Of a DNA stretch of 45,975 bases, positions 9,601-45,747 are shown piece after piece. The stretch comes from Planctomycetaceae bacterium. GTDB taxonomy: Bacteria; Planctomycetota; Planctomycetia; Pirellulales; Pirellulaceae. Below the pieces are notes generated by a model that ran no database searches, had not been told where the DNA came from, and saw only the letters and a list, made by a program, of their open reading frames with translations. The stretch's first letter is position 1, and the number at the start of each line of letters is the position of its first letter. The position numbers and the translations under genes are program-made. The stretch spans positions 1-45,975 of the forward strand of contig CANHVO010000012.1 of NCBI GenBank assembly GCA_947463915.1, read 5' to 3'.

Positions 9601-11461
9601 ATATATTGCTCCGATCCGTCAGCAATTGCGTCCATACGCTGGTGAACTTATAGGGAAGCTGAGAGCCATTCTACGGGAAGAGAAAGCCGAGGCTAATCGC
9701 CGCTTACGTGCAGCGATGGTGTTGGCAGATTTCGTTCCTGATTCAGAGGCGGCGTCGTGGACCGACGCAGACTTGCAGTTTGTGGCTGGGCAGCTGGTTT
9801 TGGAAAATTCCGAATTCCAGCCGCTACTGCGTGACAATCTGCGACCGATTAGCAAACGTCTCCTGCCGAATTTGGAAACGATCTTCGGTAACCCGAAGAG
9901 TACGGACGCACAGCGACTGAGTGCCGCAAATGCCTTCGCAGATTACGCGGCAAGCGACATCGCGAAGTTGTCTCGGTTGCTTGCGGTGGCAACTCCGGAA
10001 CAGTATGCGGTTCTCTTTCCGTTGGTCACAGCGACTCCTGCACCGTCGACTGTAGACGATCTTGCCAAGATTGCAGCGACGCTACCCCCTACGGAACTGG
10101 GTTCGGCGGAACGTATCTCCTTGGGCCAGCGTCGCGCCAGCTCGGCGGTTTCATTGTTGCGTCTCGGTGAGCGAGAAAAAGTGCTTCCGGTATTTGACAT
10201 GACCGATGACCCAGAAGCGTTAACACAGTTCATATTCCGCTGTCGCGACCGCGGCGTACGAGTAGTAGAACTACTGGATTTGTTGTCTATTGCAACCCGG
10301 AGCGTAGGCGAGGGACCAAGGCCAAATGCTCGCGTGCGTTACGCACTACTGCTTGCGCTCGGCGAATACAAAATCGATGATATTCCAGCAACGCAACGGG
10401 ACGCACTTTTTAAACAACTTGGCGATTGGTACCGCAATGATCCCAGTTCGGGTGTGCATGGTGCTGCGGGTTGGCTGTTGCGGCAATGGGACCAAGACGA
10501 GATCGTGCGGCACGTGGATCAAACTCCGGTCGCGTACTCGGTAGATCGCGAGTGGTTTACACTTTCCATCGAAGTCACATCGAAACCCAACTCGTTTCTC
10601 GGTGTTCTTACGGGTTCTTCGACGAAAAAAACTTTCTACTACACGTTCATTGTCTTCCCATCCGGAGAATCAACGATTGGCTCGGTCGAAGATGAGCCGG
10701 ATCGGATGAAGGATAGGGAAATGCGTCATGCGGTGAAACTTACGAGCCCCTTTGCCATACTTGATCGCGAAGTGACCTTCGAGGAACTGATTGCGTTTTC
10801 TCCAGATGCCATGGGAAATATGAAAGAGTCTAAAGCTCAGCTTTCGGATGCAGCCTTTGCCGTAAATTGGTACGAAGCGGTGTCGTTTTGTCGGTGGTTG
10901 TCAGAGCAGTCCGGATTCTCGGAGTCGGATCAATGTTATGCGGACCCGGAATCGCTGAACAAAAAGACCTACCCCCGCGAACCGAACCCTGAAGCGAATA
11001 TTTTCCCTCGCGATTGGCCGCTAGAGTTGGGACGACGTGGCTTTCGGTTGCCGACGGAATCGGAGTGGGAGGTGGCATGCCGCGCAGGAACGCGTACGGC
11101 TTATGGCTATGGCAGCGATGTGAGTATGCTGGCTCGATTTGGATGGTTTGTGGAAAATAGTGGCAAGCATGTCCATCCCCCGCGTGAATTGCGTCCGACG
11201 ATTCGAGGTGCGTTCGACCTTCATGGCAATTTGTTTGAGTGGACACATGATTGGTTTGCAAGGTACGGCAAAACCGCCGTGACGGATTCGCTGGGTGCGA
11301 AAAGCGGCTCGGACCGGATGGGCCGTGGCTCCGCTTGGAACAGCGACGCGAAGTATTGCCGGACGGCGTGCCGCGCCCCCTTCGCCCCGACGTTCCGCGG
11401 GTACGGCATTGGGTTCCGCGTAGCCATGAGTCCGTCAGAGAAGGTAGAAGAGCGAAGGTAG
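6647..11461 (+). CDS. Ser/Thr kinase - nSTAND NTPase - TM - FGE-domain protein
   Basis: This intact 1604-aa multidomain signalling protein starts with about 140 residues of the type that precede planctomycete kinases. A Hanks-type kinase follows at about 143-405, with glycine loop GQGAFGRVY, VAIK lysine, HRDVKPAN near 264, DFG near 285 and a GTPTYMSPEQ activation segment. Next is an nSTAND1-like NTPase, with Walker A GPSGCGKSS near 475 and Walker B VVIIIDQFE near 547. One membrane helix lies near 876-893. An alpha-helical HEAT-like region fills about 900-1300. The last 270 residues are FGE/SUMF1-like (RLPTESEWEVACRAGT, DLHGNLFEW, GFRVAM). The kinase and NTPase should be cytoplasmic and the C-terminal part beyond the membrane, so an outside signal could gate kinase activity. 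Catalytic FGE cysteines were not verified; the domain is more likely a binding or C-lectin-type module. The start is ATG at 6647. A decayed paralog lies at 13033. Confidence 0.9.
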   Translation: MPNDLLREFQHLQSESPIDLVAFLSSRPQSSAEAKLKVILHDLQERWKSAQPWKVEDYLERFPEYANDPDAIIALVKTERKAELDSETTPDIPELVHRFPHLASHLLEQMHTIDSKAPESPDPFRTVSRDPNSSSEVMLASRYRMLRLLGQGAFGRVYLAVDIELERQVAIKVPQPERFQGSCDADTYLAEARTVASLNHPHIVPVYDMGRTPEGAVFVVSRFIEGTTLEDKLKSNSLQVTDLVSLLKTVAEALHYAHGQRLIHRDVKPANILIEESTGSPFVADFGLAIREEDYAKQGGIAGTPTYMSPEQARGEGHRLDGRSDVFSLGVIMYEALTGQRPFRGSTINELLHQIVSVEARAPRCLREDTPAELERICLKSLNKRVSDRYNNAAALAEDLAAWLQPKAPQSTHSQREEQIVPKGLRSFDASDASYFLDLLPGPRNREGLPESIAFWKQRIEQTDPEETFNVGLIYGPSGCGKSSLVKAGLIPHLDKEIVAVYVEATPEDTEARILRGLRKRFPELLEEMGLVDSLTALRRAQGLKVVIIIDQFEQWLHAHRAEIDSELVTALRQCDGGRLQAIVMIRDDFAMAAARFMNALDVPIVQGVNFATVDLFDVDHAAKVVIRFGQAFGKLPANAGNLSLEEQQFVREVSQGLARDGKVVSVRLSLFAEMVKDKPWTPATLRQVGGTEGIGVNFLEETFSSPQANPRHRLNSVAARRVLNALLPELGTDIKGHMRSQAELLDVSGYRERPSDFNDLLRILDGELRLITPTDPEGHDSQSKGDLARQYYQLTHDYLVPSLREWLTRKQRETKRGRAELKLAERSATWNAKPENRYLPSLIEWFSIRTRTDRRNWTAPELEMINRATRVHSLRSGIAVASLLALMSVGFVVRQQVLHRQETTRIEGLVKQLVSADPNQIPSIVKQLDINHNLANSYVLPLLSADAKTVDEQRSRLHARLASVSHHKSLVEPLLEELLTNKVAYIAPIRQQLRPYAGELIGKLRAILREEKAEANRRLRAAMVLADFVPDSEAASWTDADLQFVAGQLVLENSEFQPLLRDNLRPISKRLLPNLETIFGNPKSTDAQRLSAANAFADYAASDIAKLSRLLAVATPEQYAVLFPLVTATPAPSTVDDLAKIAATLPPTELGSAERISLGQRRASSAVSLLRLGEREKVLPVFDMTDDPEALTQFIFRCRDRGVRVVELLDLLSIATRSVGEGPRPNARVRYALLLALGEYKIDDIPATQRDALFKQLGDWYRNDPSSGVHGAAGWLLRQWDQDEIVRHVDQTPVAYSVDREWFTLSIEVTSKPNSFLGVLTGSSTKKTFYYTFIVFPSGESTIGSVEDEPDRMKDREMRHAVKLTSPFAILDREVTFEELIAFSPDAMGNMKESKAQLSDAAFAVNWYEAVSFCRWLSEQSGFSESDQCYADPESLNKKTYPREPNPEANIFPRDWPLELGRRGFRLPTESEWEVACRAGTRTAYGYGSDVSMLARFGWFVENSGKHVHPPRELRPTIRGAFDLHGNLFEWTHDWFARYGKTAVTDSLGAKSGSDRMGRGSAWNSDAKYCRTACRAPFAPTFRGYGIGFRVAMSPSEKVEERR

Positions 11462-18119: not shown

Positions 18120-18404
18120 ATGAAAAGACGAGTAGGGCTGTTTTCCAAATATCATGTTCGCACCAAGTCTGAAAATCCACTTGATAGCGGTACTGTGGTT
18201 CTAAGGCCCTTTAATCGCGACGGTACAGTAAGAGACCCAGCAGCAGTATTAGCTCTCAATGCATATGCCGAGGCGACGCAAGATCGATCCCTAGCTCAAG
18301 CCATTATTCACTGGATAGTTAACCCAACTGATAATCCCGCAACCACTTCGCTGAACATTCCAGACGTGACAGACGCAGCTGTGCCTCCTTCTGAGGTAAG
18401 TTAA
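18120..18404 (+). CDS. small conserved hypothetical protein
   Basis: This 94-aa protein starts with MKRRVGLFSKYHVRTK and carries the pattern VVLRPFNRDG, then DPAAVLALNAYAEA. It recalls a small family of bacterial hypothetical proteins that read 'KYxVxRxDG ... FVLRxD ... DPAAxxALxAYA'. It has no signal peptide or membrane helix. It lies 47 nt before a radical SAM gene on the same strand, so the two may be co-transcribed. A peptide substrate for that enzyme is a possibility, but the family resemblance argues for an independent protein. Confidence 0.65.
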   Translation: MKRRVGLFSKYHVRTKSENPLDSGTVVLRPFNRDGTVRDPAAVLALNAYAEATQDRSLAQAIIHWIVNPTDNPATTSLNIPDVTDAAVPPSEVS

Positions 18405-18451
18405 CATGATGTCGATGACACAGATGAAAACATGGAACGATCGGACATGTC

Positions 18452-19966
18452 ATGACTGATTGGGAAAAACCCTCTAGTGCCGATGAAAAAAAGCTTTGCT
18501 TGCAGGAGATCTTTGAGTCTGGCCAGCGAAATCATCATATTTCAAATACGGCATACCCTATCGCACACTCGCAGACATGGAAGCCGTATCGCATAGGCAA
18601 GCAAAAGTATGAGCAAACGATTTCAGGTGCTTTTTCCGAATTGCCGCAAATCGCACTTTACTCGCATATTCCATTTTGTGAATCGAGATGCTATTTCTGT
18701 GAATATACAGTTGTAGGAAAGTCCGAATTGCACCTAACCGAACGCTACATGCAGAGTCTGGATCAAGAACTGGCGTTGTATTCGTCAATTCTTGGACCAA
18801 GAGAGTTAATTGGATTTGACATTGGAGGTGGAACACCCTCTTTTGTGGATGCAAGACTCATAGATCGCCACATCCAATCGGTGCAAAATTACTTTTCATT
18901 AACGGAGGGATTCGGAATAAGCATAGAAACGACCCCCAAGATAGCAGCAAGTGATCCGCAAAAGATTCGTGAGTACCAAGCTTCCGGCATTCGCAGAATC
19001 AGCATGGGAATACAAGTTACTCAGCCCGATTTGCTAAAGATTTTGGGACGTGACGCGAATGGAACAGAACAGCTTGATAGGGCTGTCGAGAATATTCGGG
19101 ATGCACAGTTCGACAGACTAAACATTGATTTAATGTATGGTTTTGCAAAACAAAGCCTAGCGTCCTGGGAAGCCACACTAAAGTACGCAATCAAATTGAA
19201 CCCCGAATACATTACTCTCTATCGAATGCGATACAAACTTACTCGTATTTCAGATCAAGCTTCTCAAGTAGATTTAGACCAAGTCATAGTCCAGTCTAGG
19301 ATGGCAAAAGAAATGCTGACATCGGCGGGGTATTGGTCAAATCCAGGAAAGAATACGTTCAGCAAAATCGCCAATGACACTGGAACAAGTGCGTACCTGA
19401 CGAGTCGCGTTATTCAAGGATCGCCGTATCTAGGAATCGGTTTAGGAGCACAAAGTTTTACGAACTGTACCATCAGTTATAATTCAGGCGCAATTGGTAA
19501 AAACCTTGCTCCGTATTTTTCAGCTTTGGGATGTAGTGAGTTACCGATTCAAGATCTATATTTGCTACCTCGAATTCAAGTAATGGCCAAGATGGTGGCG
19601 GTTAGCTTCTATTTCGGCGAAGTTAATCTGTCCTATTTCCAGGCAAAATTTGGTATCGCATTTGAAGAGGCTTACGGTGACGCGGTGGAATTCGCTTTGA
19701 AGAACGGTCTTATGCAATATACTGATTCAAAAAACGGAATGGAGTTCCGCTGTAATTCCAATCAGCATTATGGACTTCATTGTTCTCGATGTCTGTCACT
19801 AACAGAGAAGGGAGCGGAGAGTTTCAATGGAACTATTGCGCTTTTTTTTGCTCCTTCTGTTCAAGCCTATCTGATAGAACGTGATCCTACGACAGCAGAG
19901 GATATGCACATGAATCAAAGGTTCGCCGAGAGAATTGTTTCGCGGTCATGCCAAGACGGATCTTAA
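18452..19966 (+). CDS. HemN-like radical SAM protein
   Basis: This 504-aa protein has the radical SAM cluster motif CESRCYFC (a CxxxCxxC) near residue 74, preceded by LYSHIPFC as in oxygen-independent coproporphyrinogen III oxidases and their relatives. FDIGGGTPSF, the ETTPK strand and RISMGIQ with DLMYGF follow the HemN order, and YLGIGLGAQSF is the glycine-rich late motif. A C-terminal HemN-type domain is plausible. It should bind a [4Fe-4S] cluster and S-adenosylmethionine. HemN relatives include heme-chaperone HemW and radical methylases, so the substrate is not fixed. It is not next to heme genes; the partner upstream is the 94-aa protein. Confidence 0.85.
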   Translation: MTDWEKPSSADEKKLCLQEIFESGQRNHHISNTAYPIAHSQTWKPYRIGKQKYEQTISGAFSELPQIALYSHIPFCESRCYFCEYTVVGKSELHLTERYMQSLDQELALYSSILGPRELIGFDIGGGTPSFVDARLIDRHIQSVQNYFSLTEGFGISIETTPKIAASDPQKIREYQASGIRRISMGIQVTQPDLLKILGRDANGTEQLDRAVENIRDAQFDRLNIDLMYGFAKQSLASWEATLKYAIKLNPEYITLYRMRYKLTRISDQASQVDLDQVIVQSRMAKEMLTSAGYWSNPGKNTFSKIANDTGTSAYLTSRVIQGSPYLGIGLGAQSFTNCTISYNSGAIGKNLAPYFSALGCSELPIQDLYLLPRIQVMAKMVAVSFYFGEVNLSYFQAKFGIAFEEAYGDAVEFALKNGLMQYTDSKNGMEFRCNSNQHYGLHCSRCLSLTEKGAESFNGTIALFFAPSVQAYLIERDPTTAEDMHMNQRFAERIVSRSCQDGS

Positions 19967-20385
19967 TTTGACGCGACAGGCCGCGACCGACTGGGATACT
20001 CCGTGACCGACGGCACTCCAAGACCGACGCGGATGCCCCGCGGACACCATGACTTAGAAGGCTCTTGGGGACACTGCACTTTTAAATACTCGCCCTAAGC
20101 AATATTGTTCAGTGGTGCATTATGGCCCCAAGCATCACAGAACCCAGACGGGACAAATTGGGTTCGTATTCGAATGAGCCTTTCGCCGAATAAGGTACAG
20201 AAGCGTCAAAACGCTCAGAGTTTGCTACTTTGACGCGATTATAGAATGCGTTTTAACAGAGTTCAAGATTCTTGCAATTAGCCAGTTGCTTCGGTAACAT
20301 GTACGCGAATCGACGACGACGAATACGTTGGGAACAATCTAGCTGGTGGATCCAACGAATTTGGACACTTGTAGGACCGCAAAAC
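19967..20385. other. intergenic region with a short GACCGAC repeat
   Basis: No gene was seen. At 19983-20043 a unit of about 20 nt beginning GACCGAC occurs three times in a row with much divergence (spacing about 19-20 nt). No promoter or terminator could be assigned. Confidence 0.45.
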
Positions 20386-21726
20386 ATGAACGAAGCACGT
20401 AAGTTGTTCCCAAGAAGATCTTTAGGCGTGCTGTATTTTCTGGGATGTCTTGGTGTGACTTTGGCGTGCATTTGGGTCTTCACGGGGCTGTATTCTGGTC
20501 GACTTAAGTTTGAACAAGATTCAAATCGAGCAATCTGGGTGCCTTTAGTCATGGGTATTCTTTCCCTGTGCGGCACTATCGCTTTCGCTTTCGATTTATG
20601 GCCTGGTTCCTGCTGGCTTTCACTTGATAGCGAAGGATTTACAACATGCTCCTCCTTTCGTGAGGATCGCTTCTTGTGGAGAGAAATCGAACTGTTTGGC
20701 TACTACCAAAACACCGTTGGATTCAAAATGTTATGCGAGTCACGGCAGAGTAGAGCACACAGAATCTACTGTGGATATGATTACTCGTTGACCAACAATT
20801 TTGGCTACTCAACCAAAGCGCTAGTAACGCTCTTAAATCAGTACAAAGACGATGCTTCAAACGTAAACGCCCTGACACCGAAACTGGAGGTTAAAGCCTT
20901 AATGGGCAAGGCAAGCAGATCAATTGGAAAGGGGAGAATAAAGGCCCTGGCCCTGCGATCATTCCTCTTGATTCTTGAAACTGCATGTTTGCTAGCGGTT
21001 TGTATAGCAATCGTCGCGTATGCATTCGGGTACGAACGAGCTTTTGCGTTAAATCAGAGGCTGCTCTACTTCTCATTACTTGCCTTTCCTGCGGGCGTTT
21101 CTCTTTATGCGATCGTGTCCGGTAAATGGCGCAAGTTTGCAAGAATCGCGACGATCGCGGTTATCCCGTCTACTTTGCTGTACTTTTGGATTGCGAGTCC
21201 TCCGTACTTAATTCTAAGATCGAGTAATGTCCTTAACGCAATCAAGAACCAATCTGCATTCGTAAGAGGATATAGTATAAATGAAGACGATATTAATTGG
21301 CTAACTTTAAAAATCCCCTTTTTTCAAAGCGCGGTGAACGAAGGCTGGGCTGAATTCCTTTTAAGCAAGACAAAGAACTATCGAACTGAGATAGCGCTGG
21401 ATGAATTGATTGGTTTGCTCAACGAGTTTGAGTGGGTGCAAGGAGCCAACTCGTCGCGACTTGCTCGAGAGCAAAATTTGGATTGGTCGTTCATCGAGCA
21501 TGAGTTGAATTGCATTCGAGAGATTCGCCAAGTCGATTTTGCGTTCAAAGCAGCTTTATCAAAGAGTGATTTTACGAATGCCAAGTTAGTGATAGAGCAA
21601 CTTGTTAAAATGCAACAGCGATTGCCGACTGAATCCAGGTGCCGTGACATTGTCGTACATTTGATTGACGACTATTCTCTCTGTCTCAGTGTCGAGGACT
21701 TTGAAAAGGCGACAAAACCTGAGTAA
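20386..21726 (+). CDS. polytopic membrane protein with C-terminal helical domain
   Basis: ATG at 20386 is preferred over upstream starts because the first hydrophobic helix (LGVLYFLGCLGVTLACIW) then lies near the N-terminus. The protein has about 446 aa. Five membrane helices are visible: near residues 13-33, 50-70, 190-213, 225-245 and 255-275. The second half is soluble and helical. Its last 80 residues (VIEQLVKMQQRLP, CRDIVVHLIDDYSLCL) resemble the C-terminus of the lipoprotein-like protein at 27724-28374 (QLIDDLNLYEKL). It is the first gene of a same-strand run toward the kinase-CHAT pair. Function is not known. Confidence 0.7.
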   Translation: MNEARKLFPRRSLGVLYFLGCLGVTLACIWVFTGLYSGRLKFEQDSNRAIWVPLVMGILSLCGTIAFAFDLWPGSCWLSLDSEGFTTCSSFREDRFLWREIELFGYYQNTVGFKMLCESRQSRAHRIYCGYDYSLTNNFGYSTKALVTLLNQYKDDASNVNALTPKLEVKALMGKASRSIGKGRIKALALRSFLLILETACLLAVCIAIVAYAFGYERAFALNQRLLYFSLLAFPAGVSLYAIVSGKWRKFARIATIAVIPSTLLYFWIASPPYLILRSSNVLNAIKNQSAFVRGYSINEDDINWLTLKIPFFQSAVNEGWAEFLLSKTKNYRTEIALDELIGLLNEFEWVQGANSSRLAREQNLDWSFIEHELNCIREIRQVDFAFKAALSKSDFTNAKLVIEQLVKMQQRLPTESRCRDIVVHLIDDYSLCLSVEDFEKATKPE

Positions 21727-22030
21727 CACTTGTTTTTCACCGAAACTCGTTCTGCCTAGCCTATCTCGGATGCCTTGCCGCAGAGTGGTAGCAAGGCGGA
21801 ACACCGGCACCAGATGATTGCGACTACAGCGAAGCATCCATTTTTCCGGTAATTTGGATGGTGCTGCTGCGATGCAAACAAGAGTTCGGTATACTTTCAA
21901 TCGCGTCTAGCTCCCTTCGATCAGACGCATTCAGATTTTCGCGAATTTCGAATGCTGAAAAAAGGTGGCGTTGCGATCGCATGCCTCTGCGACCCGAGCC
22001 CCAAAATCTTTAAAGAAATGCCCTGAAACA
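21727..22030. other. intergenic region, no gene seen
   Basis: A hairpin at about 21772-21796 (CCTTGC ... GCAAGG) follows the preceding gene. It has no obvious T-tract, so it is only a weak terminator candidate. Nothing else was recognised. Confidence 0.4.
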
Positions 22031-23638
22031 ATGAGAAGTATTTTGCCGTATCAAATGCAACAAACTAAGCAAAAAAAGCTGGAATTTCGCATGCAGGCTG
22101 GTACCGGCACTTCAAGTAACCCTGTTACGAAGTGTTTTCTGCTCCCACTATTGTTCATCATTTTGATCTGTTCGATTTTTCCTGCGAGCGCTAGTGGGCA
22201 AATTGGCAAGGCAATTCGCCATGCTGCCGAAGCAGCCGCCAAAGTAGCGGACGACGCAGCGAAGGCAACGAAGGCAGCGAAAAAGCTACCTGATGATACG
22301 GTAGCTCGAAGGCTGGGTAAGGTAGATTCAAAAACCCCACCTACGAAACCGAGTAATCTGAGTTCATCGAACAAACGATTGGAAAGCGAGTTTAGGGAAC
22401 TGGACACGTCCTTAGAACGACTGCCTGGACCTACAGATGCATTGCAGATTCAACATAACTTGGAGTTGCGTCTTCTGGAAACTGGTAAGTCCCCCCTGGA
22501 TGAAGTTCCAGTTTCTGAGCTGAAGGAAGCGATTGAAGAGTCAAAGTCACTCGCTAGTTCCATCGAATCGAATAAAAAGATCGTCCGCGATTTGCTAAAG
22601 TCCGACCTAGTTTTTTCCCAAATTGATGAGTTGAAGCGATGGAGAGTTATCAATGCTGCACCCGAGCAAGAATTGCTACTAGTCCCTGAATTAATCAGAC
22701 GAACCGAGATAGAGGATTCGCTTTTGAGTGGACTGCCTGGGCATGAGGAATTTCTTAATAAAGCGAGGGAGATGAAGTTGCTAACCAACCAAGCGTCACA
22801 GGTTGCACCTCTGGCATCAAAAAGTAGGGTCATGCGATTGGCGGCCGAAGCATTTACCGACGTGTCACGTAATAATTCTGCCCTCGCTCAAGAGACTGAA
22901 ACGGACAGAGAAGCAACGATTCGATCAATTGAGAGGATGGACAAGATACTTTCATGGAAACTTGCGAGAATTGGTCAACTTCGGTCAACAGTTATGGCTG
23001 CAGAAAGTTACATTCGATTGATTGGACCGGCACGACAGACAGACACAAGCAACGGCGCCGATATAATCTTCGGCAAAAGCACTGTGGATGTGTCGGATCG
23101 AGTTAATGCTTGGGATTTGGCTATCGATGCCGCGGACCTTCTTGTCAAGCAGATTATCTCGTTGTCAGAGCGACTTTATAAAGCAGACTTCAAGTACGAA
23201 TATGAATTCGATGAGATAGTATGCGGAACGATGTCCGGAAGCACTGGGCTGCGTCTTTCGGATTTGCATATCGATATCGCGGTATTACTCGTTCGTAGCG
23301 GGCACTCGAAACGTGCTCATGAATGGATCACGAACGAACTCGCAAATGGAGCAGGATTGGAGCGTGTTCGAGACGCATTAAACGAAAACCCAAAGCGTTT
23401 GGGGTTTACTCCGATGAAACCAACTAACTTTGAATCGATCAATATTCGAACGTTGTTTGAACGCGAATTCGCGGAGTTAGAAAGGTCGATTTTACAGTTG
23501 GAGACCTATTTAATCGTAGAAGCGGTAGCTGTTCATAGCGTTGCGACCCAAAGACTGAAGCAGCTAAATAGGCAATTCAATGTTGTAAGTCAGTCGCCAG
23601 TAGAGAAGCTTCTGGAGCAATTAACGAATACCAAATAA
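22031..23638 (+). CDS. secreted helical protein with GLPGH motif
   Basis: The ATG at 22031 gives about 535 aa. A charged N-region then a hydrophobic stretch (CFLLPLLFIILICSIFPASA) looks like a long signal peptide or membrane anchor. An Ala/Lys-rich linker follows (AAEAAAKVADDAAKATKAAKK). The rest is helical and probably coiled-coil. A block GLPGHEEFL near residue 238 and a block near LSERLYKADFKYEYEFDE recur in the protein at 28376-29644 (GLPGHAKYLE and the KAFRKANFHFDE region), so the two are paralogs. The kinase gene starts 84 nt downstream. A role as envelope partner of the kinase-CHAT pair is inferred from position only. Confidence 0.75.
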   Translation: MRSILPYQMQQTKQKKLEFRMQAGTGTSSNPVTKCFLLPLLFIILICSIFPASASGQIGKAIRHAAEAAAKVADDAAKATKAAKKLPDDTVARRLGKVDSKTPPTKPSNLSSSNKRLESEFRELDTSLERLPGPTDALQIQHNLELRLLETGKSPLDEVPVSELKEAIEESKSLASSIESNKKIVRDLLKSDLVFSQIDELKRWRVINAAPEQELLLVPELIRRTEIEDSLLSGLPGHEEFLNKAREMKLLTNQASQVAPLASKSRVMRLAAEAFTDVSRNNSALAQETETDREATIRSIERMDKILSWKLARIGQLRSTVMAAESYIRLIGPARQTDTSNGADIIFGKSTVDVSDRVNAWDLAIDAADLLVKQIISLSERLYKADFKYEYEFDEIVCGTMSGSTGLRLSDLHIDIAVLLVRSGHSKRAHEWITNELANGAGLERVRDALNENPKRLGFTPMKPTNFESINIRTLFEREFAELERSILQLETYLIVEAVAVHSVATQRLKQLNRQFNVVSQSPVEKLLEQLTNTK

Positions 23639-23722
23639 TGTAAGAAATCGCTAGAGCGATCTTTACTATCTGTTTTCAATAACGCGACTGTCCCCCTTAC
23701 CCATCTGCTCCCCAACTATCCG

Positions 23723-25102
23723 ATGATGCAAAACAAAGACCCATTCGACACACAACCAATGCTGTCACAAACGTTGTTTCTCGAAGACGATTTTGAGTTT
23801 GTTGAGGTCCTAGGGAGTGGTGGATTCGGTGAAGTATGGAGGGCAATTGACAGAAATCTGCATCGATCGGTCGCAATCAAAATGATTCGGCCTCCACGCA
23901 TTGATTTGATCGAACAATGCATTAATATGCTTGCGAGAGAGTCTCAAATTCTTGCCAAGTTTCAACATCCGAATCTGATTTTGGTACACGCACTTAGACG
24001 ACAAGACGACAAGCTCGCGATCGTTTCCGAATATATCGATGGAGGGTCTTTGAGAGACCGGGTAGAAGCTTGTGAGCTGAGCGTAAACAAGGCTCTCCGA
24101 TATATCGCCGATGTATCTGGCGCTCTCGCAACAATGCATTCAGAAAATGTTGTTCATTGCGACATCAAACCCGCGAATATTTTAATACGCTCAAAAACGG
24201 ATGAAGCTGTTCTTTGCGACTTTGGATTGGCGTCGATCATTGGCCAGAAAGGCCCGACTGGTGGTACTCCTCTATTCTCGGCGCCAGAGGTCTTTATGGG
24301 AGTTCCCTGTCCCGCAAGTGATGTGTACAGCTTGGCTGCAACTCTCATCTACGCGGTAGCGAGAACCGAATTGCCACAGTCCTTCCCAATCGGAAAAGCA
24401 TATATCCCAACCGACGACGTGCTCGACGCTTTTCCAACTTCTCTAGAGGTTTTCCTACGAAACTGCTTGTCGCCGGATCCCAAAAAACGCCCGTCTCTTG
24501 ATGAGTTTGCGGAGCATGCAAGAACCAATCTGAACCAATCCATTTTGGATCAGCTTACGTTTGATCTGAGTCAAAATTCGACCTCAACAGGCCCTTGCAT
24601 TGTCACTATCGAATGTATTGCATCGCCAAACAAGAGCGTTGCGCGCAGGTCAGATTCGAGGAACTTGAATTCTCGAGCAGTTCGCGATCTTAAAAAAGTA
24701 ATTCCGTCAAGTTTGCAGGCAAAAACTGGAGAGCATGTGCTAATTCGCGTTACTGCGAATCAGATTGGATACCTAACAATTTTAAATGTTGGCCCATCTG
24801 GCAATCTCAATGTTCTCGAGGAAAACCTTCCTGTCACGGCCCCTGGAAAAAACTGGGAATGTGAAACGATTCTCGCACCTCCACAGGGACGAGAGCGTGT
24901 TTTTGCCATCTGGACGAAAACGCCATTCATTCGTACTGCGGATCTGAGGGACGAGACTTTGCCTAAAGAAGGTTCATTGGACGATACAAAAAGTCTTCCG
25001 AGACGTGCCACTCGAGATTTAGTTCGAATCGACCAATCTGCTCGCAGTCATCAAGAAAAAGAAAAAAGTGTCGCTGTGGTAGAGATCGAGCATGTCGGAT
25101 GA
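23723..25102 (+). CDS. Ser/Thr protein kinase with DUF4384-like tail
   Basis: This 459-aa protein has a Hanks-type kinase domain (residues about 28-275): GSGGFGEVWRAID, VAIKM lysine, and DFGLAS near 166. The catalytic loop reads HCDIKPAN (His145, Cys146, Asp147), so the usual Arg of HRD is replaced by Cys; the Asp and Lys are kept, and activity is likely. The activation segment is short (GGTPLFSAPE). The C-terminal part, about 325-420, has VRVTA-type strands, GYLTILNVGPSGNLNVL and RERVFAIWTKTP, which recall DUF4384, a domain often seen with caspase-like and CHAT proteins. The gene overlaps the CHAT gene by 11 nt, a sign of translational coupling, so the kinase and protease probably act together. 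No membrane helix is present. Confidence 0.88.
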   Translation: MMQNKDPFDTQPMLSQTLFLEDDFEFVEVLGSGGFGEVWRAIDRNLHRSVAIKMIRPPRIDLIEQCINMLARESQILAKFQHPNLILVHALRRQDDKLAIVSEYIDGGSLRDRVEACELSVNKALRYIADVSGALATMHSENVVHCDIKPANILIRSKTDEAVLCDFGLASIIGQKGPTGGTPLFSAPEVFMGVPCPASDVYSLAATLIYAVARTELPQSFPIGKAYIPTDDVLDAFPTSLEVFLRNCLSPDPKKRPSLDEFAEHARTNLNQSILDQLTFDLSQNSTSTGPCIVTIECIASPNKSVARRSDSRNLNSRAVRDLKKVIPSSLQAKTGEHVLIRVTANQIGYLTILNVGPSGNLNVLEENLPVTAPGKNWECETILAPPQGRERVFAIWTKTPFIRTADLRDETLPKEGSLDDTKSLPRRATRDLVRIDQSARSHQEKEKSVAVVEIEHVG

Positions 25103-27608
25103 AACCTGGTTGACACATGAGCAATGTCTACAAATTGAGAGGCAGATTGATGCCCTTTGCCGAGCAAGCGAGCACTTTCAAGCTGCCAACTTAGCCGAGG
25201 CATATGCAGACAAGGTACCGCCCTTAAGTGAGTTTCATTCTCGGGCAATCTATCTTCATGCTTTTTCGTATTTTCTTGGCGGATATTACACCAACGCATG
25301 GGAAACAATCCAGGTTGGGTTGTCTCTCGTAAATCAATTGCCACCTCCAGTTTTACCGCGATTGTACCTATTGGCCTGCGAGATTGCCATTGCTTGCCGC
25401 AGAACGGAAGACGCAAACAGTGTTCTCAATGAATACCATCGATTGCCAAAGAAGCTGAAGTCTGAAGTAATCCTGGAAGTTAAACTCATTCGAATCGAAC
25501 TGATTTTGAAGAACTCCAAGGAGATTGCCTTGGCTGCAGATCGCATGGTGCGTCGCTTGATTGCGTCAGGTAAAGATAGAGAAGCGGCTTTTGTGCTTTG
25601 TGATTTGGGTTCAATGTACTTGCGCAACGGAGACGCCGAAAAAGCCGACAAAAACTGGCGACGCGGATTGCAGGTAGGCAATGCGGTTCCGGCGATACAA
25701 TCCGATCTGCTTATCCACTTAGGCCGTAGCCAGCAATTGAAGGGTCGACTTCAATCAGCAATCAATCTCTACATGCAAGCAGCAGAATTGGCCACCAATT
25801 CTGTGCAACGTTGCGACGCATTGATCAGGAAATCACTTGTTCGCTTTGACCTAAATCAAATCGAAGATGCCAGCGAAGAACTACAAGTTGCAATTAGTTC
25901 GTTGGAAAAGCCCTATCCTGAGTCGTTACTGCCATTGATACGATTCGCGTCAAAGAACATTGACGGCCGCGAAATCGAGTGGGAAAACAATAACGACATG
26001 GGATGGCTCGATTCATTGAACAACGATTCACTGAGCACAGACAACGAGGTGTCGCGAAAAGCCTACCGTCGTGGAAATGAACTTTGGATCGCAGGCTTAG
26101 AGAACGATGCGGAGTCTTGGCTTCGCACAGCTTGGAAGTATGCGCAAGAGAATTCCAATCTAGAAGTGGCGTGGCGGTCCGCTGTTTTCTTGGGACGCAT
26201 CACTGGTAAGCGTGACATTCAGAACAGTTGTACAAAACAGTATTCTCAGCACCCTGAGTCGCTTCTGTGGTTTAGCCGAGCACTGGATATTTTGGAAAAG
26301 CAGTCAGAGACAATCGATACACCAGTCAATCGCGCTCACTATCGCTTTCAATTGAGATCAATTGCGTTAGAGTTGTTTGAAGGTTCGGTCAGATCTGGCG
26401 ACGTTCAAAATGCATTCAGATACTCGGAGTTACTCCGAGGAAGGTTACTCGCTGATTTTTTTTCTCAAAATGCAAATGCGAAGAGCGGAAAACACTCGTT
26501 TTTGAATTGGTTAGGCATTGGGGGGGCTTTCCGCAAATCGACAGAGGGAGTTGAGGCCATTAAGAAACGGCTAGGTCACGGCGAAGTATTTATCTCACTA
26601 GCCGAATTGGACTCATGTGTTTCGGCAATTGTAATTACGAGCGATGGTGAGCCTGAACTGAGAACCAAAGAGCTTGACGGAGAATCACTACAAATAGCAA
26701 AAAACAACCTCGAATGTTGCTTAGAGGATCAGCTTTCCGCTTACCGGAACGGGGCTGAGCTGGATACACTAAAACAAGATTTTTGCAACATGCTTACGGA
26801 CATTTCCAAATCGGAACTTGGAAAACTAATTGGAGATATTCTTCGCAAATTTAAACATAAAGTAGTCTTATTGAGTTTGGACGGCAGACTGGGGAACATT
26901 CCCGTCCACGCCCTTCCTTTCAATGGCAGATTTCTGATTGAAACTCGAGAAGTTGCGTATGTCCCAATTGGTAACTGGCTAAGCCGGGACCCAGTTTTGC
27001 GACAACTAACCAAACATTCAAGAGGACTGCTAATTTCTGAAGCTGAGGAATCACTTCCGAACGCCAAGACCGAAGCACTTCAAATCCAATATCGCTTTCG
27101 TAGGTCGTTCCACTTGCACGCAATGGAAGCTAATACAACGAATGTAGAAAACGCCATCAAACAATGTGATTTCTTGCATTTTGCATGCCATGGTGAGACC
27201 AATTCGGATTCACCGCTAAACGCCTCACTACAACTCCCCTCCGGCCAGGAATGGACCGCAGGTTTCGTTGCAAAGTCTTTGAATTTGAATGGTAAACTTT
27301 GCGTATTGAACTGTTGCAAGACTGGAGAACAGCGCAAACAAGTCGCGGGAGAAACATTCTCTATTGCAACTAGTTATCTCGCAGCTGGTGCAGCCAGCGT
27401 TGTTGCCGCACTATGGTCATTGCCCGATGAAGAATCTGCCTTTCTGATTGGGAAATTCTATGATTATCTGCAGAGCGAATCGCCCATACATGCAATAGCA
27501 AGAGTGCAACGAGAAGCTATTGCTTCGGGCATGCATCCGCTATTTTGGGCACCATTTGTCTACATCGGAACATCTCGCGAAAAGCAATTGCGTTTCGGAT
27601 TTATTTGA
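25092..27608 (+). CDS. TPR - CHAT-domain caspase-like protease
   Basis: This 838-aa protein has a helical N-terminal half (about 1-430) with TPR-like repeats (AFVLCDLGSMYLRNGD, LLIHLGRSQQLKGRL). The C-terminal CHAT domain spans roughly 560-838. The caspase-like dyad is visible: HFACHGE, with His near 700, and VLNCCKTG, with catalytic Cys near 742 (the second of the two Cys aligns with the Cys of the usual SAC-TG motif). AAGAASVVAALWSLPDEES and the FWAPFVYIGT ending are also family features. Its TPR half probably senses or binds a partner and controls the protease. It is the last plus-strand gene of the run; it converges with the paralog pair on the other strand. Signal peptide and membrane helices are absent, so it is cytoplasmic. 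Confidence 0.92.
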   Translation: MSDETWLTHEQCLQIERQIDALCRASEHFQAANLAEAYADKVPPLSEFHSRAIYLHAFSYFLGGYYTNAWETIQVGLSLVNQLPPPVLPRLYLLACEIAIACRRTEDANSVLNEYHRLPKKLKSEVILEVKLIRIELILKNSKEIALAADRMVRRLIASGKDREAAFVLCDLGSMYLRNGDAEKADKNWRRGLQVGNAVPAIQSDLLIHLGRSQQLKGRLQSAINLYMQAAELATNSVQRCDALIRKSLVRFDLNQIEDASEELQVAISSLEKPYPESLLPLIRFASKNIDGREIEWENNNDMGWLDSLNNDSLSTDNEVSRKAYRRGNELWIAGLENDAESWLRTAWKYAQENSNLEVAWRSAVFLGRITGKRDIQNSCTKQYSQHPESLLWFSRALDILEKQSETIDTPVNRAHYRFQLRSIALELFEGSVRSGDVQNAFRYSELLRGRLLADFFSQNANAKSGKHSFLNWLGIGGAFRKSTEGVEAIKKRLGHGEVFISLAELDSCVSAIVITSDGEPELRTKELDGESLQIAKNNLECCLEDQLSAYRNGAELDTLKQDFCNMLTDISKSELGKLIGDILRKFKHKVVLLSLDGRLGNIPVHALPFNGRFLIETREVAYVPIGNWLSRDPVLRQLTKHSRGLLISEAEESLPNAKTEALQIQYRFRRSFHLHAMEANTTNVENAIKQCDFLHFACHGETNSDSPLNASLQLPSGQEWTAGFVAKSLNLNGKLCVLNCCKTGEQRKQVAGETFSIATSYLAAGAASVVAALWSLPDEESAFLIGKFYDYLQSESPIHAIARVQREAIASGMHPLFWAPFVYIGTSREKQLRFGFI

Positions 27609-27723
27609 ACGCGATCGCATCGACGTACTAAGGCAAGACTGTAATCGCGGAATTCAGTTGCATCTCGCTCAACCAGTACCAACAAACGTCTTTGTTTACA
27701 ACTTAACCTAAAACCCAATACTT

Positions 27724-28374
27724 TCAGGATTCAGGTTTTATCGCGAGTTTCTCGTAAAGATTAAGATCGTCAATCAGCTGTTGGCAAGGTAATCGGCATG
27801 GCGAAACAACACCAAGCCTCTCAATGATTGACGTTAGGCGCGGCAGGAGTTCTTTTAGAGGCAATTCCTCATCCCTTCGAAGTGTGTCCGCAATCAATTG
27901 CTCAATAACCTGAAACTTCGCGAATTCAGACATGTCAACTTTATAAAAACTGACTGCAATACTGTTTTCGGAAACAACCTTTTGGAAACTTGGAAGCTCT
28001 TGGATCTGTCTTAATCTCACGAGGCATGAAACCGTGCTAGAACAATCAATCGAATCCCTTGCACGCCGCCATTCTTGCAGGAAAAAGTCCTCACAGCCCT
28101 TATCAAAAAGCTTAGACTCTTGAGGGAATTCTTCGCGTGCGATCATGATTATGCGATCAGCTTCGACCAGAGAATGTTGAGAAAAGAATTGATTGTTCCG
28201 AAGGGCCTCAACACAAATGAGTCCTTCCTGCTGTTTTGCTGTGGGAGTGCAGCCAAAACACACAATTGCCAAAACGATGCTGTTAAGTCTGCAGCGCCAG
28301 ATTTGATTGGTTTTATGCGCCATTGTTGCCATTACATCTCTGAGTTCAACCACACTTTGATTTGCATTGCTCAT
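27724..28374 (-). CDS. lipoprotein-like protein, paralog of 20386 C-terminus
   Basis: This 216-aa protein starts 1 nt after the stop of the GLPGH paralog, so it is coupled to that gene. After a charged stretch, SIVLAIVCFGCTPT looks like a lipoprotein signal with the Cys as anchor. An internal start at the MATMAHK stretch would give a more normal signal length. The remainder is helical. The C-terminus, with QLIADTLRRDEELP, CRLPCQQLIDDLNLYEKL and its neighbours, resembles the C-terminal part of the membrane protein at 20386-21726. It should be at the envelope and pair with the GLPGH protein. Confidence 0.7.
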   Translation of the reverse strand: MSNANQSVVELRDVMATMAHKTNQIWRCRLNSIVLAIVCFGCTPTAKQQEGLICVEALRNNQFFSQHSLVEADRIIMIAREEFPQESKLFDKGCEDFFLQEWRRARDSIDCSSTVSCLVRLRQIQELPSFQKVVSENSIAVSFYKVDMSEFAKFQVIEQLIADTLRRDEELPLKELLPRLTSIIERLGVVSPCRLPCQQLIDDLNLYEKLAIKPES

Positions 28375-28375
28375 A

Positions 28376-29644
28376 CTAATTTAGCTTTGAAGACTCACGC
28401 CATGCAATCGCACGAACTGCCAGAAGTTCAGTTACGATTAGTAACTGCGATTGATCTAAAGCATCTCCAAGGATGTCTATTTCATGGGAGAAGAGATCGA
28501 CTCTTTGTGATCTCGCCCCAGTAGCTACATCATTACCTTCATACTTTGCAGTCGGATTAAGAAGCTTTTGCTCTATACTCTCGCGAAGTTTTAGCGCGGA
28601 AGTGTGCTCGCATCGAATTGGCAACCACTCAATCGCTTGTCCGGAATGTTCAGACAGAAATAATGAATTGGCCATTCGCATCTTGAAACGATCTACTGAA
28701 TCATGTGAATCCTTATAGAGCCTACTGATACCTGCGGCCATGCTTTCATCGAAATGGAAATTTGCTTTGCGAAATGCCTTGTCCATCACGATTATTTGCG
28801 AAAGTTGATCCCGCAACTTCATGAGCATATCGTTAATGCCACGGGAATCTGATGCGTTTTCTTTCGAGATTGCTTGCAGCGTTGACTCAGCGCGAAGAAC
28901 GTCTCTTAACCTTAGATACTCAAGTGCCTTTTGCAGAGTTGCAATTGTGGCGACATTGTTGCCGAGGCGACGATCGAGAATCCGCAATCGTTCTGTCTTT
29001 TCTGATGTTGACTCGTTTTCCGAGTTGTCACCTGAAGGCAAGTTTGCGGAGAAGAGAACATCGAGAATGCTTTTGACATAAAACTCGCCGAAGACAATTT
29101 TCTTTTTTGGGTCCAACTCAGAATTGGTCAACATTGCTTCCAGATACTTGGCATGACCTGGCAGACCATCTAGCACAGATTCTTCAAGTTGTGCACGATT
29201 TTGGAATCCAAATACTTCCAAAATTCCATACTGGTTTCCCTGCATCGTTGCCTGTCCTTCTTCCTCTAATGCGAAGTCTGACAATGACAGTGCCATGCGA
29301 CCTTTGCCCCCCCTATGTGGAAAGGGCTTTTGTTTGAGAATCTTCAGGTCCCGAAGAATCTGGTTGTTCTTAAGAAGCACCAAGTCAATTTGCTCTGAGT
29401 ACGAGAGCGGCGAGGAACGGAGTTCCAATCCACCTAACTCGATTGCCTCTAAATCAATTTCCAAATTTCCTATGTTACGCACAGCTTCTTTTGCATTCGC
29501 AGAAGTGTCTTTCGACAAGTTTGTATTGGGTTTAGAGTTGGGATTCGCGCGAAAGTTCAACTTGCTTTGCGCTAAGGTGTAACCACAAACGTTTGCCACT
29601 AAAATAATGGCTAATGCGATAATGCTGAAGGATCGATTGAACAT
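28376..29644 (-). CDS. secreted helical protein, GLPGH paralog
   Basis: The start at 29644 (MFNRSFSIIALAIIL) gives a normal signal peptide ending near TLAQ; an ATG at 29704 would add 20 residues before it. About 422 aa. A central GLPGHAKYLE matches the GLPGH block of the 22031 protein, and the later KAFRKANFHFDES, HSGQAIEWL and LIVTELLAVRAIAWR blocks match its end (KADFKYEYEFDE, GHSKRAHEWI, LIVEAVAVHSV). The rest is helical with coiled-coil character. It is on the minus strand, coupled to the lipoprotein-like gene, mirroring the pair upstream of the kinase. Confidence 0.75.
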   Translation of the reverse strand: MFNRSFSIIALAIILVANVCGYTLAQSKLNFRANPNSKPNTNLSKDTSANAKEAVRNIGNLEIDLEAIELGGLELRSSPLSYSEQIDLVLLKNNQILRDLKILKQKPFPHRGGKGRMALSLSDFALEEEGQATMQGNQYGILEVFGFQNRAQLEESVLDGLPGHAKYLEAMLTNSELDPKKKIVFGEFYVKSILDVLFSANLPSGDNSENESTSEKTERLRILDRRLGNNVATIATLQKALEYLRLRDVLRAESTLQAISKENASDSRGINDMLMKLRDQLSQIIVMDKAFRKANFHFDESMAAGISRLYKDSHDSVDRFKMRMANSLFLSEHSGQAIEWLPIRCEHTSALKLRESIEQKLLNPTAKYEGNDVATGARSQRVDLFSHEIDILGDALDQSQLLIVTELLAVRAIAWRESSKLN

Positions 29645-29841
29645 GCTATTTGTCCAGCCAAGATTTGGAATCGCAAAATTTTTGGTTATTGTAACTGCCG
29701 CCAAACTTCTGTAAACGACAAAGGGCCACTATTAGGCTGCTAGTTGCAGCCTCTGGCCAGATCTGTGCGGAGAATACTCCGCTGCCCGTATTTGACCTCG
29801 CCACACCTACAAACTGAAGAACGAATTGTTGAAGACTAGTG

Positions 29842-30471: not shown

Positions 30472-31018
30472 TTCTAAATCTCCAACATCAATTTCAATCG
30501 TAGTTCTGAAACCGCTGAAAAAATAGTCTCGATTTCATTATGAAAAATTACGCGTCAATCGTTCCTTGTCAACATTGCATAATATTTGACTGCTTCGTTC
30601 CTCTTATGTGAAGGGTCGGTGACTTTATTTGGGCAGAATTTGCTTTCTTCAAAGCCTTCAAACGTCACACGCGAAAGGCGACACACCTCCTTTGCTTGGG
30701 GCAGACCGGGTCGCACAACGCGTTTATGTTTCAAGTTGCTGCCTTCGGACGGCAACGTCACCAAGAAAAAGTCGAGAGAGTATTGATCGGGCTCTATGGT
30801 CTCTCCGATTTCAAGAGACTTTGGCCTCTCTGTTCTTGGCTTCGATTTTGCAATTCAGATCACAGTCAATATGTTCAGGTCTACGAAGCCCCATGGTGCA
30901 GTTTATCAATCAAAAATACCTGACGAGGCCGCTGGTGGTTGACATTTGAACCGTTGATGTTTACCCTGTCCGATATTGTTCAGCTGTGCAAGATCATGAA
31001 TCGACGAATGGAAAGGCA
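30472..31018. other. intergenic region, one doubtful small frame
   Basis: Short open frames exist (30696-30923, plus), with a cysteine- and tryptophan-rich translation that matches nothing known. A purine-rich ribosome-binding site (GGAAAGG) lies just before the ATG at 31019. Otherwise nothing was seen. Confidence 0.4.
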
Positions 31019-32800
31019 ATGAAAATGAAGCGAGTGTTACAAACTTCGGTAATCCTCACCATCATGGTGAACGGAAACGGTTTGATTTATGGCCAGGATT
31101 TCTTAGGGCAACTTGGTGCTGCGATCGGCCGCGAGATTCGGAACGACGTCCAAAACAGTGGTAACCCGCAAGCTATTCGCGAATTTAATCAAATGGGAGC
31201 CGCAATCGATAGATCAGGATTGAACCCAAATTCGAATCAACACTTCAAGCCGCTAGAGGTCCGGCCGCAACAGATTCCCGGAAACAACCAGAATTATCCT
31301 CAGCAAATCCCTGGGTACAACCAGAATTATCCTCAGCAAATCCCAGGCAACGGCCCTTACTATCCCCAGCAGTTCTCGAATACCGTTGTTCCCAATCGAG
31401 TTGTGCCAAATGTGATTCCAAGCAACTCTTCCTTCAATTTCGCAGTGCCATCGATCTCGATTCCATCAATTTCAAACATATCGCCCACTGTTCCCACAAT
31501 GCCGGTTGTGCCTAACAGCCTACCATCCTTTTCCTCAAGTATACCAATTGGAGAGTCGGATAAAGTTAAGCCAAAATCGAATGACTTATTTATCCCGAAA
31601 TCCCTTAAGATTTCGGGTGTTCAGCAAGAGAAGAGCATAGAGGCTATGCGTAAAAAAGCTTTGCGAGATTTCGAAAACGTTGAGTCTGAGCTAATGCCCA
31701 AAGCAGATATTACAAAGGTGGTGGCTGGCCTTCCAGAGCCTTACGATACAGAACTAAAGCAGAAGTTATTAACTGCAGTATTGGCAGGTGACAGGATTGG
31801 AATGAGTGGATTGCCGGAAATAAAATCGCCGCTCTTCGAGTCTCTGAAGTCTCAAATGGCAGCGAGAGAGGCTATTTATGATTTAAAGGATAAAGTAAGG
31901 AATGGAAAAGCGAGTGACGAGGATTTTCGAGGTGCGACGAATATTATTAAGTCGCTTGTTCCTGCATCACGCGCCGATAAAATTTCGTCATTAATTGACA
32001 TACTTCGGGTCAAAAACCAAATTATTGATCTACTAGACAAAGCAACACCTGGCACTGGAATTGGCACGTTACCGTCAAGCAGTGATTTTTGGGTAATTCA
32101 CGTCCCTAGCATGCCAATAGGTACAATCATCGACCTTGGAAACGGGGCATACATGGTTGGCGTCGTACCAACAACACCGCTTTCGGTTCAGACAGGCTCC
32201 TTTGAAACGCTTCTTGGAGCAGCAACTTATTCGGAAAAGCCCTTTAATGGTTCGGACGTGAAGTTAGGGAAAAAGGAGATTTTGATAAGGAATTCAATAG
32301 ATGCCACTTTTGCATATTCATTGAACGGCTCTCCCTACACGATGCAAGCAAATTATGAACAGTCGCTTGACGGAAGCACGCCATGGACGATTACATATGA
32401 TCAGGGTGGTGGAAAAGGCACGAAGACCGAGCAGCTTGTGCCCGGAATTTATGAAATTACAACAAGCCCAGGGTATTGGGCCATTCAGCGCATCGGTGCG
32501 AAAATTGAGATCAACAACTCCAGTAACGCGAGGGAATTTAACTACCTTGTGGACGGAGTACAACACACGATTTCAGGGCATGGCAAAGCAAATCACAGCA
32601 GCGACACTAGAATTAGTATTGTTTTTGATGACGGATCGGGACAAGTCAAAAGGAAAACAATGCGCCGTGGAGTGGTTTATGTCGGACTTGTACACGGGAA
32701 AAACGAAATCGATTTATTCACGGAATCAATTCCCTCCTCTACGGCGACTCCGGGGGCCCCGACTCCTTCTGCAGAAGCATCGAATCTTTTTGGTCCCTGA
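31019..32800 (+). CDS. secreted protein with PQQIPG repeats and duplicated beta domain
   Basis: The ATG at 31019 follows GAAAGG; the upstream ATG at 30986 would lengthen it by 11 residues. About 593 aa. The signal peptide (MKMKRVLQTSVILTIM, then NGLIYGQD) is clear. A tandem of three PQQIPG-NxQNY units follows, then a Pro/Ser-rich linker, a helical middle, and two copies of a beta-rich domain near the C-terminus (TFAYSLNGSPYTM through PGIYEI, and EFNYLVDGVQHTI through GVVYVGL). The protein should be exported or at the surface. A GLPE block in the middle recalls the GLPGH block of the neighbouring locus, but weakly. No enzyme motif. Confidence 0.75.
   Translation: MKMKRVLQTSVILTIMVNGNGLIYGQDFLGQLGAAIGREIRNDVQNSGNPQAIREFNQMGAAIDRSGLNPNSNQHFKPLEVRPQQIPGNNQNYPQQIPGYNQNYPQQIPGNGPYYPQQFSNTVVPNRVVPNVIPSNSSFNFAVPSISIPSISNISPTVPTMPVVPNSLPSFSSSIPIGESDKVKPKSNDLFIPKSLKISGVQQEKSIEAMRKKALRDFENVESELMPKADITKVVAGLPEPYDTELKQKLLTAVLAGDRIGMSGLPEIKSPLFESLKSQMAAREAIYDLKDKVRNGKASDEDFRGATNIIKSLVPASRADKISSLIDILRVKNQIIDLLDKATPGTGIGTLPSSSDFWVIHVPSMPIGTIIDLGNGAYMVGVVPTTPLSVQTGSFETLLGAATYSEKPFNGSDVKLGKKEILIRNSIDATFAYSLNGSPYTMQANYEQSLDGSTPWTITYDQGGGKGTKTEQLVPGIYEITTSPGYWAIQRIGAKIEINNSSNAREFNYLVDGVQHTISGHGKANHSSDTRISIVFDDGSGQVKRKTMRRGVVYVGLVHGKNEIDLFTESIPSSTATPGAPTPSAEASNLFGP
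31268..31372 (+). repeat. tandem 33-bp coding repeat
   Basis: Three adjacent units of 33 bp encode PQQIPGNNQNY-type peptides in the secreted protein. Units one and two differ at a few bases; unit three is more divergent (PQQIPGNGPYY). It lies just after the N-terminal third of the signal-peptide-containing region and probably forms a flexible linker. Confidence 0.85.
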
Positions 32801-39675: not shown

Positions 39676-40164
39676 GATCATGCCGTTGGGGCAAAGACAA
39701 TAAGCGGAGCTCGGATTGCCACACGATTGCCTAGAATTGATTCAAGCTCGTTGTCAGTGTCGACCCTTGTTGAATTTTCAAAACTCGATTGACGACCTGC
39801 CAACATAATGTCGTCTCCGACGGTGCTCAATACGCTTCTCGTGTCTAAGGCGTCTATAGTTTCCTGATCAAACGGCTAATAGCAAAAAAACGACTACCCT
39901 GTGGGCTAGCGCCACAAGCACTCTTTAGGAGGAACCTTTGCAGTTAGCTCGATTTGGCAGCGATTTACAACGCCGTTGGTCGCCTTCTTTCCCCGTCGAT
40001 TTCCGTCTCAGTGCTTTTCAGCATCCGTACCATCCGCTGTTCGATGGTTTGCCAAGCTAAATCCGGCGTCCTTCCCCCTTCCCGGTCGCTCTCTCTTAAG
40101 CCCGCATTAGCTATATTTGCGACTGCCGGGGATTCTCTTTACTGCCGAACAGCTAAAGAAAAGC
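39676..40164. other. intergenic region between remnants and minus-strand operon
   Basis: No intact gene was seen. A minus-strand open stretch of about 60 codons (about 39690-39873, ending APLIVFAPTA) lacks a start and is probably another fragment. Nothing else was recognised. Confidence 0.4.
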
Positions 40165-40188
40165 TAGCAGGGCCTGGATGCCCTGCTA
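40165..40188 (-). terminator. intrinsic terminator of the 40205 operon
   Basis: A perfect 9-bp hairpin (arms TAGCAGGGC and GCCCTGCTA at 40165-40173 and 40180-40188, 6-nt loop) is followed, read on the minus strand, by a T-rich stretch (CTTTTCTTT). It lies 17 nt past the stop of the small membrane protein. Confidence 0.85.
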
Positions 40189-40204
40189 ACTTGCCGTGGC
40201 TGAA

Positions 40205-40435
40205 TTAGTCTTCCGACCCTTTGTCACCTCGCAATATCTTTGCCGCGTCTGTTATCGCCTTCGCGATCGTGTCTACCACGTATTGCCCGCAAATGAACAC
40301 AAACAGCAGGGCAAACGCGACGAATAGCCAGTTGAAACCGAAGTAAATCGATATGCCTGCGACAATCACTATGAACCCCACAACATATCCAAAGATCGTC
40401 ATTACCCTCTCCACAACATCCGTCTCGTCACTCAC
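40205..40435 (-). CDS. small membrane protein
   Basis: This 76-aa protein starts at GTG with AGGTAGG about 8 nt upstream. Two hydrophobic segments (VMTIFGYVVGFIVIVAGISI and LFVAFALLFVFICG) flank a short turn (YFGFNW), so it is a two-pass membrane protein; the tail is charged (KILRGDKGSED). It is the last gene of the minus-strand operon, before the terminator. No family is recognised. Confidence 0.7.
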   Translation of the reverse strand: MSDETDVVERVMTIFGYVVGFIVIVAGISIYFGFNWLFVAFALLFVFICGQYVVDTIAKAITDAAKILRGDKGSED

Positions 40436-40457
40436 AGCGCACCTACCTATCTAAGGC

Positions 40458-40742
40458 TCACGCCAAGCTGCCGGCTTGTTCGGGGAACCGTAAGTTGCTT
40501 CCACTTAATATGACTCGAAAATGGCCTGGATTTAGCGGTTCAGCAATCGCCCCGGCCAAACGAATGAAACCAAGAGACTTTTCCCGATAGCTAAAAAAGA
40601 TCAGCCAATGGCTTTCGCCAGCGAATGATCTTTTGCAACGCTGCCAAATGGAAACGAAACAGCGAACGCCCCCCGCTTGAAGCTCGGTCCGTGACGAGGC
40701 TACACTTACTGCTCTACCAACCGCTCGTCGATAGTGTGCCAC
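40458..40742 (-). CDS. possible small hypothetical protein
   Basis: A 94-aa open frame overlaps the previous clamp-like gene's end by 37 nt. No family match, signal peptide or membrane helix is visible, and no ribosome-binding site stands out. Composition (many Arg, Ser, Gly) is only weakly protein-like. It may be an artefact. Confidence 0.3.
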   Translation of the reverse strand: MAHYRRAVGRAVSVASSRTELQAGGVRCFVSIWQRCKRSFAGESHWLIFFSYREKSLGFIRLAGAIAEPLNPGHFRVILSGSNLRFPEQAGSLA

Positions 40743-41119: not shown

Positions 41120-41147
41120 GGTTCCTTTCTTCTACTTGGTTGGGTTA

Positions 41148-42317: not shown

Positions 42318-42424
42318 GATTTTTGATTTCGTTTGTTGAAAGGTATTGGATGGGACGAGCGGGCATGGTTGGCCTCGCTCGGTAATTCGTTGAGCCCGAA
42401 GCTTGGCTCCGTAGTACGACGATC

Positions 42425-45737: not shown

Positions 45738-45747
45738 AGTGCACCTC

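Follow-up and report, generated by a model that had tools for sequence, protein, structure and literature searches.

Gene content and setting of the locus

The window analyzed here is one whole contig (C12) of 45,975 bp from a planctomycete assembly of 7.6 Mb in 618 contigs. All six genes of the module under study are present in its list of open reading frames (ORFs). A membrane protein (M), a GLPGH protein (G1), a kinase (K) and a protease (C) are encoded on the forward strand, and a small exported protein (L) and a second GLPGH protein (G2) on the reverse strand (Table 1). The gap between the end of G1 and the start of K is 84 bp, the first 11 nt of C lie within K, and L is separated by 1 base from G2, which lies upstream of it. 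The ORF coordinates bear out two statements of the preliminary description, namely that the kinase and TPR-CHAT genes overlap by 11 nt and that a polytopic membrane protein and a GLPGH protein precede the kinase on the same strand.

Table 1 Genes of the module, their positions in the window, and the basis of each call
Gene product	Position	Strand	Basis
M, polytopic membrane protein	20386-21726	+	Hydropathy; L-related C-terminus
G1, exported GLPGH protein	21965-23638	+	Signal segment; G2 paralog
K, Ser/Thr protein kinase with C-terminal DUF4384	23723-25102	+	Pfam; catalytic motifs
C, TPR-CHAT protease, predicted cytosolic	25092-27608	+	Pfam CHAT; TPR
L, small exported protein with short hydrophobic N-terminus	27724-28374	-	Homology to M C-terminal domain
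G2, exported GLPGH protein	28376-29704	-	G1 paralog; signal segment at residue 26

The GC content of the module is 45.7%, compared with 51.8% +/- 0.75 elsewhere in the genome (25 overlapping 9.3-kb windows). The locus is AT-rich, as had been judged by eye, but the AT-rich stretch runs from about 18 to 34 kb and is not confined to the module. Acquisition of the module is plausible. At the left edge of this stretch is a gene for a HemN/STM4012-like radical SAM protein (18120-19966) with a 94-aa ORF ahead of it. An imperfect 27-nt direct repeat (78%) is found on either side of the six-gene module, at 20093-20119 and 30964-30990; since repeats of similar quality recur in the same scan, it may be due to chance and is not taken as evidence of insertion. 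The window contains neither tRNA genes nor Rfam RNAs. Between 13033 and 17633, a kinase-STAND-FGE protein related to that of an intact gene (6647-11461) is split over several ORFs, reflecting either a pseudogene or assembly errors. The end of the window (40000-45975) is a mobile-element-like repeated segment with genes for RadC (42425-42859) and a sliding-clamp-like protein (41148-42317); further copies lie on two other contigs (C422 and C33) and in two sister species (G615 and G609).

A kinase and a CHAT protease predicted to be cytosolic

K has a protein kinase domain (Pfam Pkinase, E 5.9e-44) in which the catalytic motifs GSGGFGEV, VAIK, HCDIKPANI, DFG, and APE are intact, with HCD in place of HRD. 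The DUF4384-like tail that had been proposed for this kinase is found by Pfam at E 1.3e-5; its 25.6 bits fall short of the cut-off (27) but rise to 32 when neighbours in the frame are included. DUF4384 is known from orthocaspases and kinases (PMC7475262, PMC6426788). In orthocaspases it is tied to a caspase-fold peptidase (PMC7475262), as in the window, but here the domain belongs to the kinase, and a separate gene encodes the peptidase, a CHAT protein.

The CHAT domain of C (PF12770) is recognized at E 1.3e-33, with 117 bits against a cut-off of 24, and contains a putative catalytic dyad, H700/C742, within the motifs FACHGE (at 697) and LNCCKTG (at 739). The combination of TPR and CHAT is shared with Csx29, the TPR-CHAT protein of the type III-E CRISPR effector Craspase, whose His-Cys dyad aligns with that of C at equal spacing and whose CHAT cysteine is essential for cleavage (PMC9729208). 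However, C falls outside the Csx29 family (40.9 bits against an NCBIfam cut-off of 300), its partner is a kinase instead, and no gRAMP/Cas7-11 gene is present among the window ORFs examined. Full-length relatives of C were found neither in the genus nor in 118 genomes of the order. A scan of genome contigs returned only two weak matches, both from Fibrobacteres, and a comparison with plasmids only distant CHAT proteins.

By hydropathy, on which all compartment assignments made here are based, K has no membrane helix between the kinase domain and DUF4384 and C has no N-terminal signal peptide. There is scant open frame upstream of the C start (841 open codons, of which 838 are used). The pair is therefore predicted to be cytosolic.

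Two pairs of predicted exported paralogs flank the kinase and protease

Comparison of the flanking genes identified two pairs of paralogs. The alignment of G1 with G2 covers about 300 residues at 25% identity (BLASTP E 2e-9; shuffle z 15.2, with none of 150 shuffles as high; Gumbel p 5e-9), and the C-terminal part of M aligns with the body of L over 168 residues with 23% identity (BLASTP E 3e-5; shuffle z 10.9; Gumbel p 2e-6). Both resemblances had been suggested in the preliminary description, and the lack of similarity within the pairs that would have spoken against it was not seen. No other pairing among the six module genes rises above noise in the shuffle test. A secreted protein encoded at 30986-32800 was considered as a third G-like member and dropped, the alignment being gapped and weak (p 0.005). 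The two pairs had also been described as inverted with respect to each other across the kinase and protease genes. While their paralogy is confirmed, the layout is not a mirror image: M is followed by G1 on the forward strand and G2 by L on the reverse strand, and this difference in gene order rules out a simple inverted duplication.

The predicted layout of M consists of two transmembrane (TM) helices, a cytosolic region, three further TM helices, and the exported C-terminal domain common to L. Its hydropathy peaks are at residues 13, 49, 193, 226, and 251, the last of which is borderline (1.59). The loop charges follow the positive-inside pattern with the C-terminus out, which places the domain shared by M and L outside the cytoplasm in either protein. 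M is predicted to be the only membrane-spanning protein of the six-gene set. Its N-terminal part resembles STM3941 (bacterial PH-like) over residues 15-108 at a sub-threshold level (NCBIfam E 0.015), and its 15.2 bits leave it outside that subfamily (cut-off 40). L has an export-type N-terminus (hydropathy 1.41 at residue 28), in keeping with the earlier label of a lipoprotein-like protein, but its lipobox (CFG|C) is non-canonical. G1 likely starts near residue 43 and has a signal segment at about residues 54-72 (hydropathy 2.51 at residue 54). Neither G1 and G2 nor L have a match of useful score in Pfam, NCBIfam, PADLOC, or PHROGs. Structure predictions from two-sequence alignments are too poor for a fold search (pLDDT 42 for M and 35 for G1).

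Judged from these comparisons, M/L and G1/G2 are two ancient pairs of putatively exported paralogs that flank K and C, with a predicted membrane-associated domain protein (M or L) and a predicted soluble GLPGH protein (G1 or G2) on each side. By these predictions, the membrane separates the protease from the envelope proteins.

The kinase-DUF4384/TPR-CHAT pair recurs in planctomycetes

To look for similar gene pairs, we searched 297 genomes of the order and 294 of the phylum for DUF4384 and took 60 regions, in which ORFs were scored with kinase, DUF4384, and CHAT profiles (with Pfam confirmation for a subset). In these planctomycete samples, a CHAT gene lies within two genes of a kinase-DUF4384 gene in 14 of 25 cases outside the window (L074, L075, L077, L080, L082, L083, L084, L086, L122, L123, L125, L131, L133, and L145). 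This proportion describes a sample and not a census, as the regions were chosen from kinase-sized frames and L074 was picked with both domains known beforehand. The two genes are directly adjacent at 10 of the 14 loci, and 8 of these 10 have the kinase followed by CHAT in the same order and strand as in the window. With 3 matches in the window's own genome, CHAT genes are rare, so chance poorly explains this rate of pairing. The kinase-DUF4384/TPR-CHAT pair is a recurrent planctomycete unit, for which no published name was found in the literature searched. K has the kinase domain and C-terminal DUF4384 of this unit, and C, as at the 8 other loci, is encoded directly downstream on the same strand. 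These findings suggest that a Ser/Thr kinase coupled to a caspase-like protease is a standard unit in planctomycetes.

Most of the other pairs differ from that of the window in their predicted compartment. A TM helix precedes DUF4384 in 13 of the 14 kinases, and by inspection at least 12 of the 14 CHAT proteins have a signal-like start, so that the protease and DUF4384 are predicted to be outside the cytoplasm in most pairs. Loci L080, L083, and L086, for example, have the same domains as the window, with the kinase first and CHAT directly downstream and often overlapping, but the window kinase lacks the TM helix and the window CHAT protein the signal peptide. C is also shorter (838 aa) than the CHAT proteins of the planctomycete kinase-TM-DUF4384 pairs (935-1584 aa), and those pairs, unlike that of the window, are not flanked by exported paralog pairs. 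The majority form is not universal. L122, from outside the order, is a second pair with neither a kinase TM helix nor a CHAT signal, and the window pair is accordingly classed as a variant.

In quick phylogenetic trees, K is placed with the paired kinase of L131 (support 0.89) and C with the CHAT proteins of L145, L102, L123, and L142 (support 0.57-0.88). The CHAT genes of L145 and L123 are near kinase-DUF4384 genes. These groupings make it plausible that K and C were inherited as a unit, which is left unproven by the long branches in both trees.

The envelope families were not found outside the locus in the genomes sampled

In contrast to the kinase and protease, none of the four envelope genes was found in the relatives. 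No relative of the G or M/L families is present among the 749 ORFs of the retrieved regions. Profiles built from G1/G2 gave nothing significant outside the locus in 343 genomes of the phylum, those from M/L nothing in 100 genomes of the family, and neither profile anything in 26 other species of the genus; as each profile consists of two rows, its reach is limited, and distant relatives could have escaped it. A scan of genome contigs with G1 and a search for the G family in viral and plasmid sequences gave no match. The preliminary description had proposed that both envelope pairs belong with the kinase and protease, to be confirmed by the same gene order in relatives. The K-C type pair does recur there, but at 14 or more planctomycete loci it does so without these partners, an outcome that the description itself had named as counting against its proposal. 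Since the pair recurs and the four envelope proteins do not in the genomes sampled, the latter are a local addition. The full set was seen in no second genome, and conserved neighbourhood therefore cannot be used as evidence for its function.

Possible functions of the module

The envelope pairs are linked to K and C by gene position only, and the most economical reading of the locus makes them the inputs of this pair. We tentatively favor, at less than even confidence, a trans-envelope relay in which the window's pair is a cytosolic variant of the recurrent unit that receives an envelope signal via M. G1 and G2, acting with the exported domain of either M or L, would sense the state of the envelope, and M would relay this signal across the membrane to K. 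K may in turn control C, either by phosphorylation or by contact via DUF4384, and C would cleave a cytosolic substrate. This proposal builds on the gene anatomy, the paralogy of the flanking pairs, the recurrence of the K-C type pair at other loci, and the finding that K and C have neither TM helices nor signal sequences; that the envelope proteins act with K and C, in which direction signaling runs, and what the protease output is are points we infer. Against a relay, most of the related pairs would need none of their own, as their kinase crosses the membrane and their CHAT protein has a predicted export signal. The location of G2 and L on the opposite strand also speaks against it, as they need not be coexpressed with K and C. 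An analogous arrangement is PknG-GlnX-GlnH of actinobacteria, in which a cytosolic kinase receives its signal from an exported protein via a membrane protein (PMC11032199). The window likewise combines a predicted cytosolic kinase with a polytopic membrane protein and with exported proteins that are the proposed input, but the actinobacterial relay as described has no protease, and the likeness is one of analogy only. The contrast between the window's cytosolic form with separate exported partners and the majority form could reveal the role of DUF4384 and the origin of the signal. An elaboration that we regard as improbable is that M-G1 and L-G2 are alternative sensor pairs that compete for, or jointly control, one K-C unit; if true, duplicated sensors would feed one caspase-like output in a bacterium.

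Alternatively, K and C may be self-contained and the four exported orphans unrelated cargo of the AT-rich, probably acquired region. This explanation, which we consider possible though doubtful, is consistent with the occurrence of similar pairs elsewhere without the four proteins, with the absence of the G and M/L families from the other sampled genomes, and with the low GC at 18-34 kb, which spans further unrelated genes. Chance association is harder to reconcile with two separate paralogous pairs on either side of K and C, with an identity between the duplicates of 25-29%, which indicates that they have probably been close together for long, and with the location of M and G1 on the same strand as K and C, with the end of G1 84 bp ahead of K.

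A role in defence, with C as a suicide protease of the Craspase or caspase type, K as its regulator, and the exported proteins detecting phage at the envelope, is unlikely. CHAT proteases do act against phage, as in Craspase (PMC9729208), the window has the mobile-element-like region with RadC and the sliding-clamp-like gene at 40-46 kb, and K matches kinases of the PADLOC models mad6 and PD-T4-6. However, these matches are to the kinase domain, which is common to planctomycete kinases, and another protein of the window, of the kinase-STAND type, matches both models more strongly. K scores 129 bits against NCBIfam MADS6 (the MAD6 equivalog), far from the cut-off of 460. The association with defence genes that had been raised for this locus was not found: no known defence gene was recognized within the module, and the envelope proteins have no PADLOC match.

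The exported proteins had originally been put forward as sensors or substrates. Sensing via M is compatible with the predicted topology, but direct cleavage of one or more of them by the CHAT protease is unlikely, and we give this reading very little credence despite the precedent of Csx30, a genetically linked substrate of the Craspase CHAT protein (PMC9729208), because C lacks a signal peptide and has next to no unused frame ahead of its start, while export is predicted for G1, G2, L, and the M domain, leaving only the cytosolic loops of M within reach.

Apparently exported proteins are also encoded at two of the other paired loci. In L122 (5411-13293), the kinase and CHAT genes are separated by the gene for a 218-aa protein whose N-terminus is of the export type, and next to the pair is a gene for an apparently exported protein of 731 aa, with all genes on one strand. 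In L125 (7071-11389), the kinase-DUF4384 gene is flanked by genes for two apparently exported proteins that are similar to each other over 48 aa (33%, E 5e-4), perhaps a distant parallel to the layout of the window.
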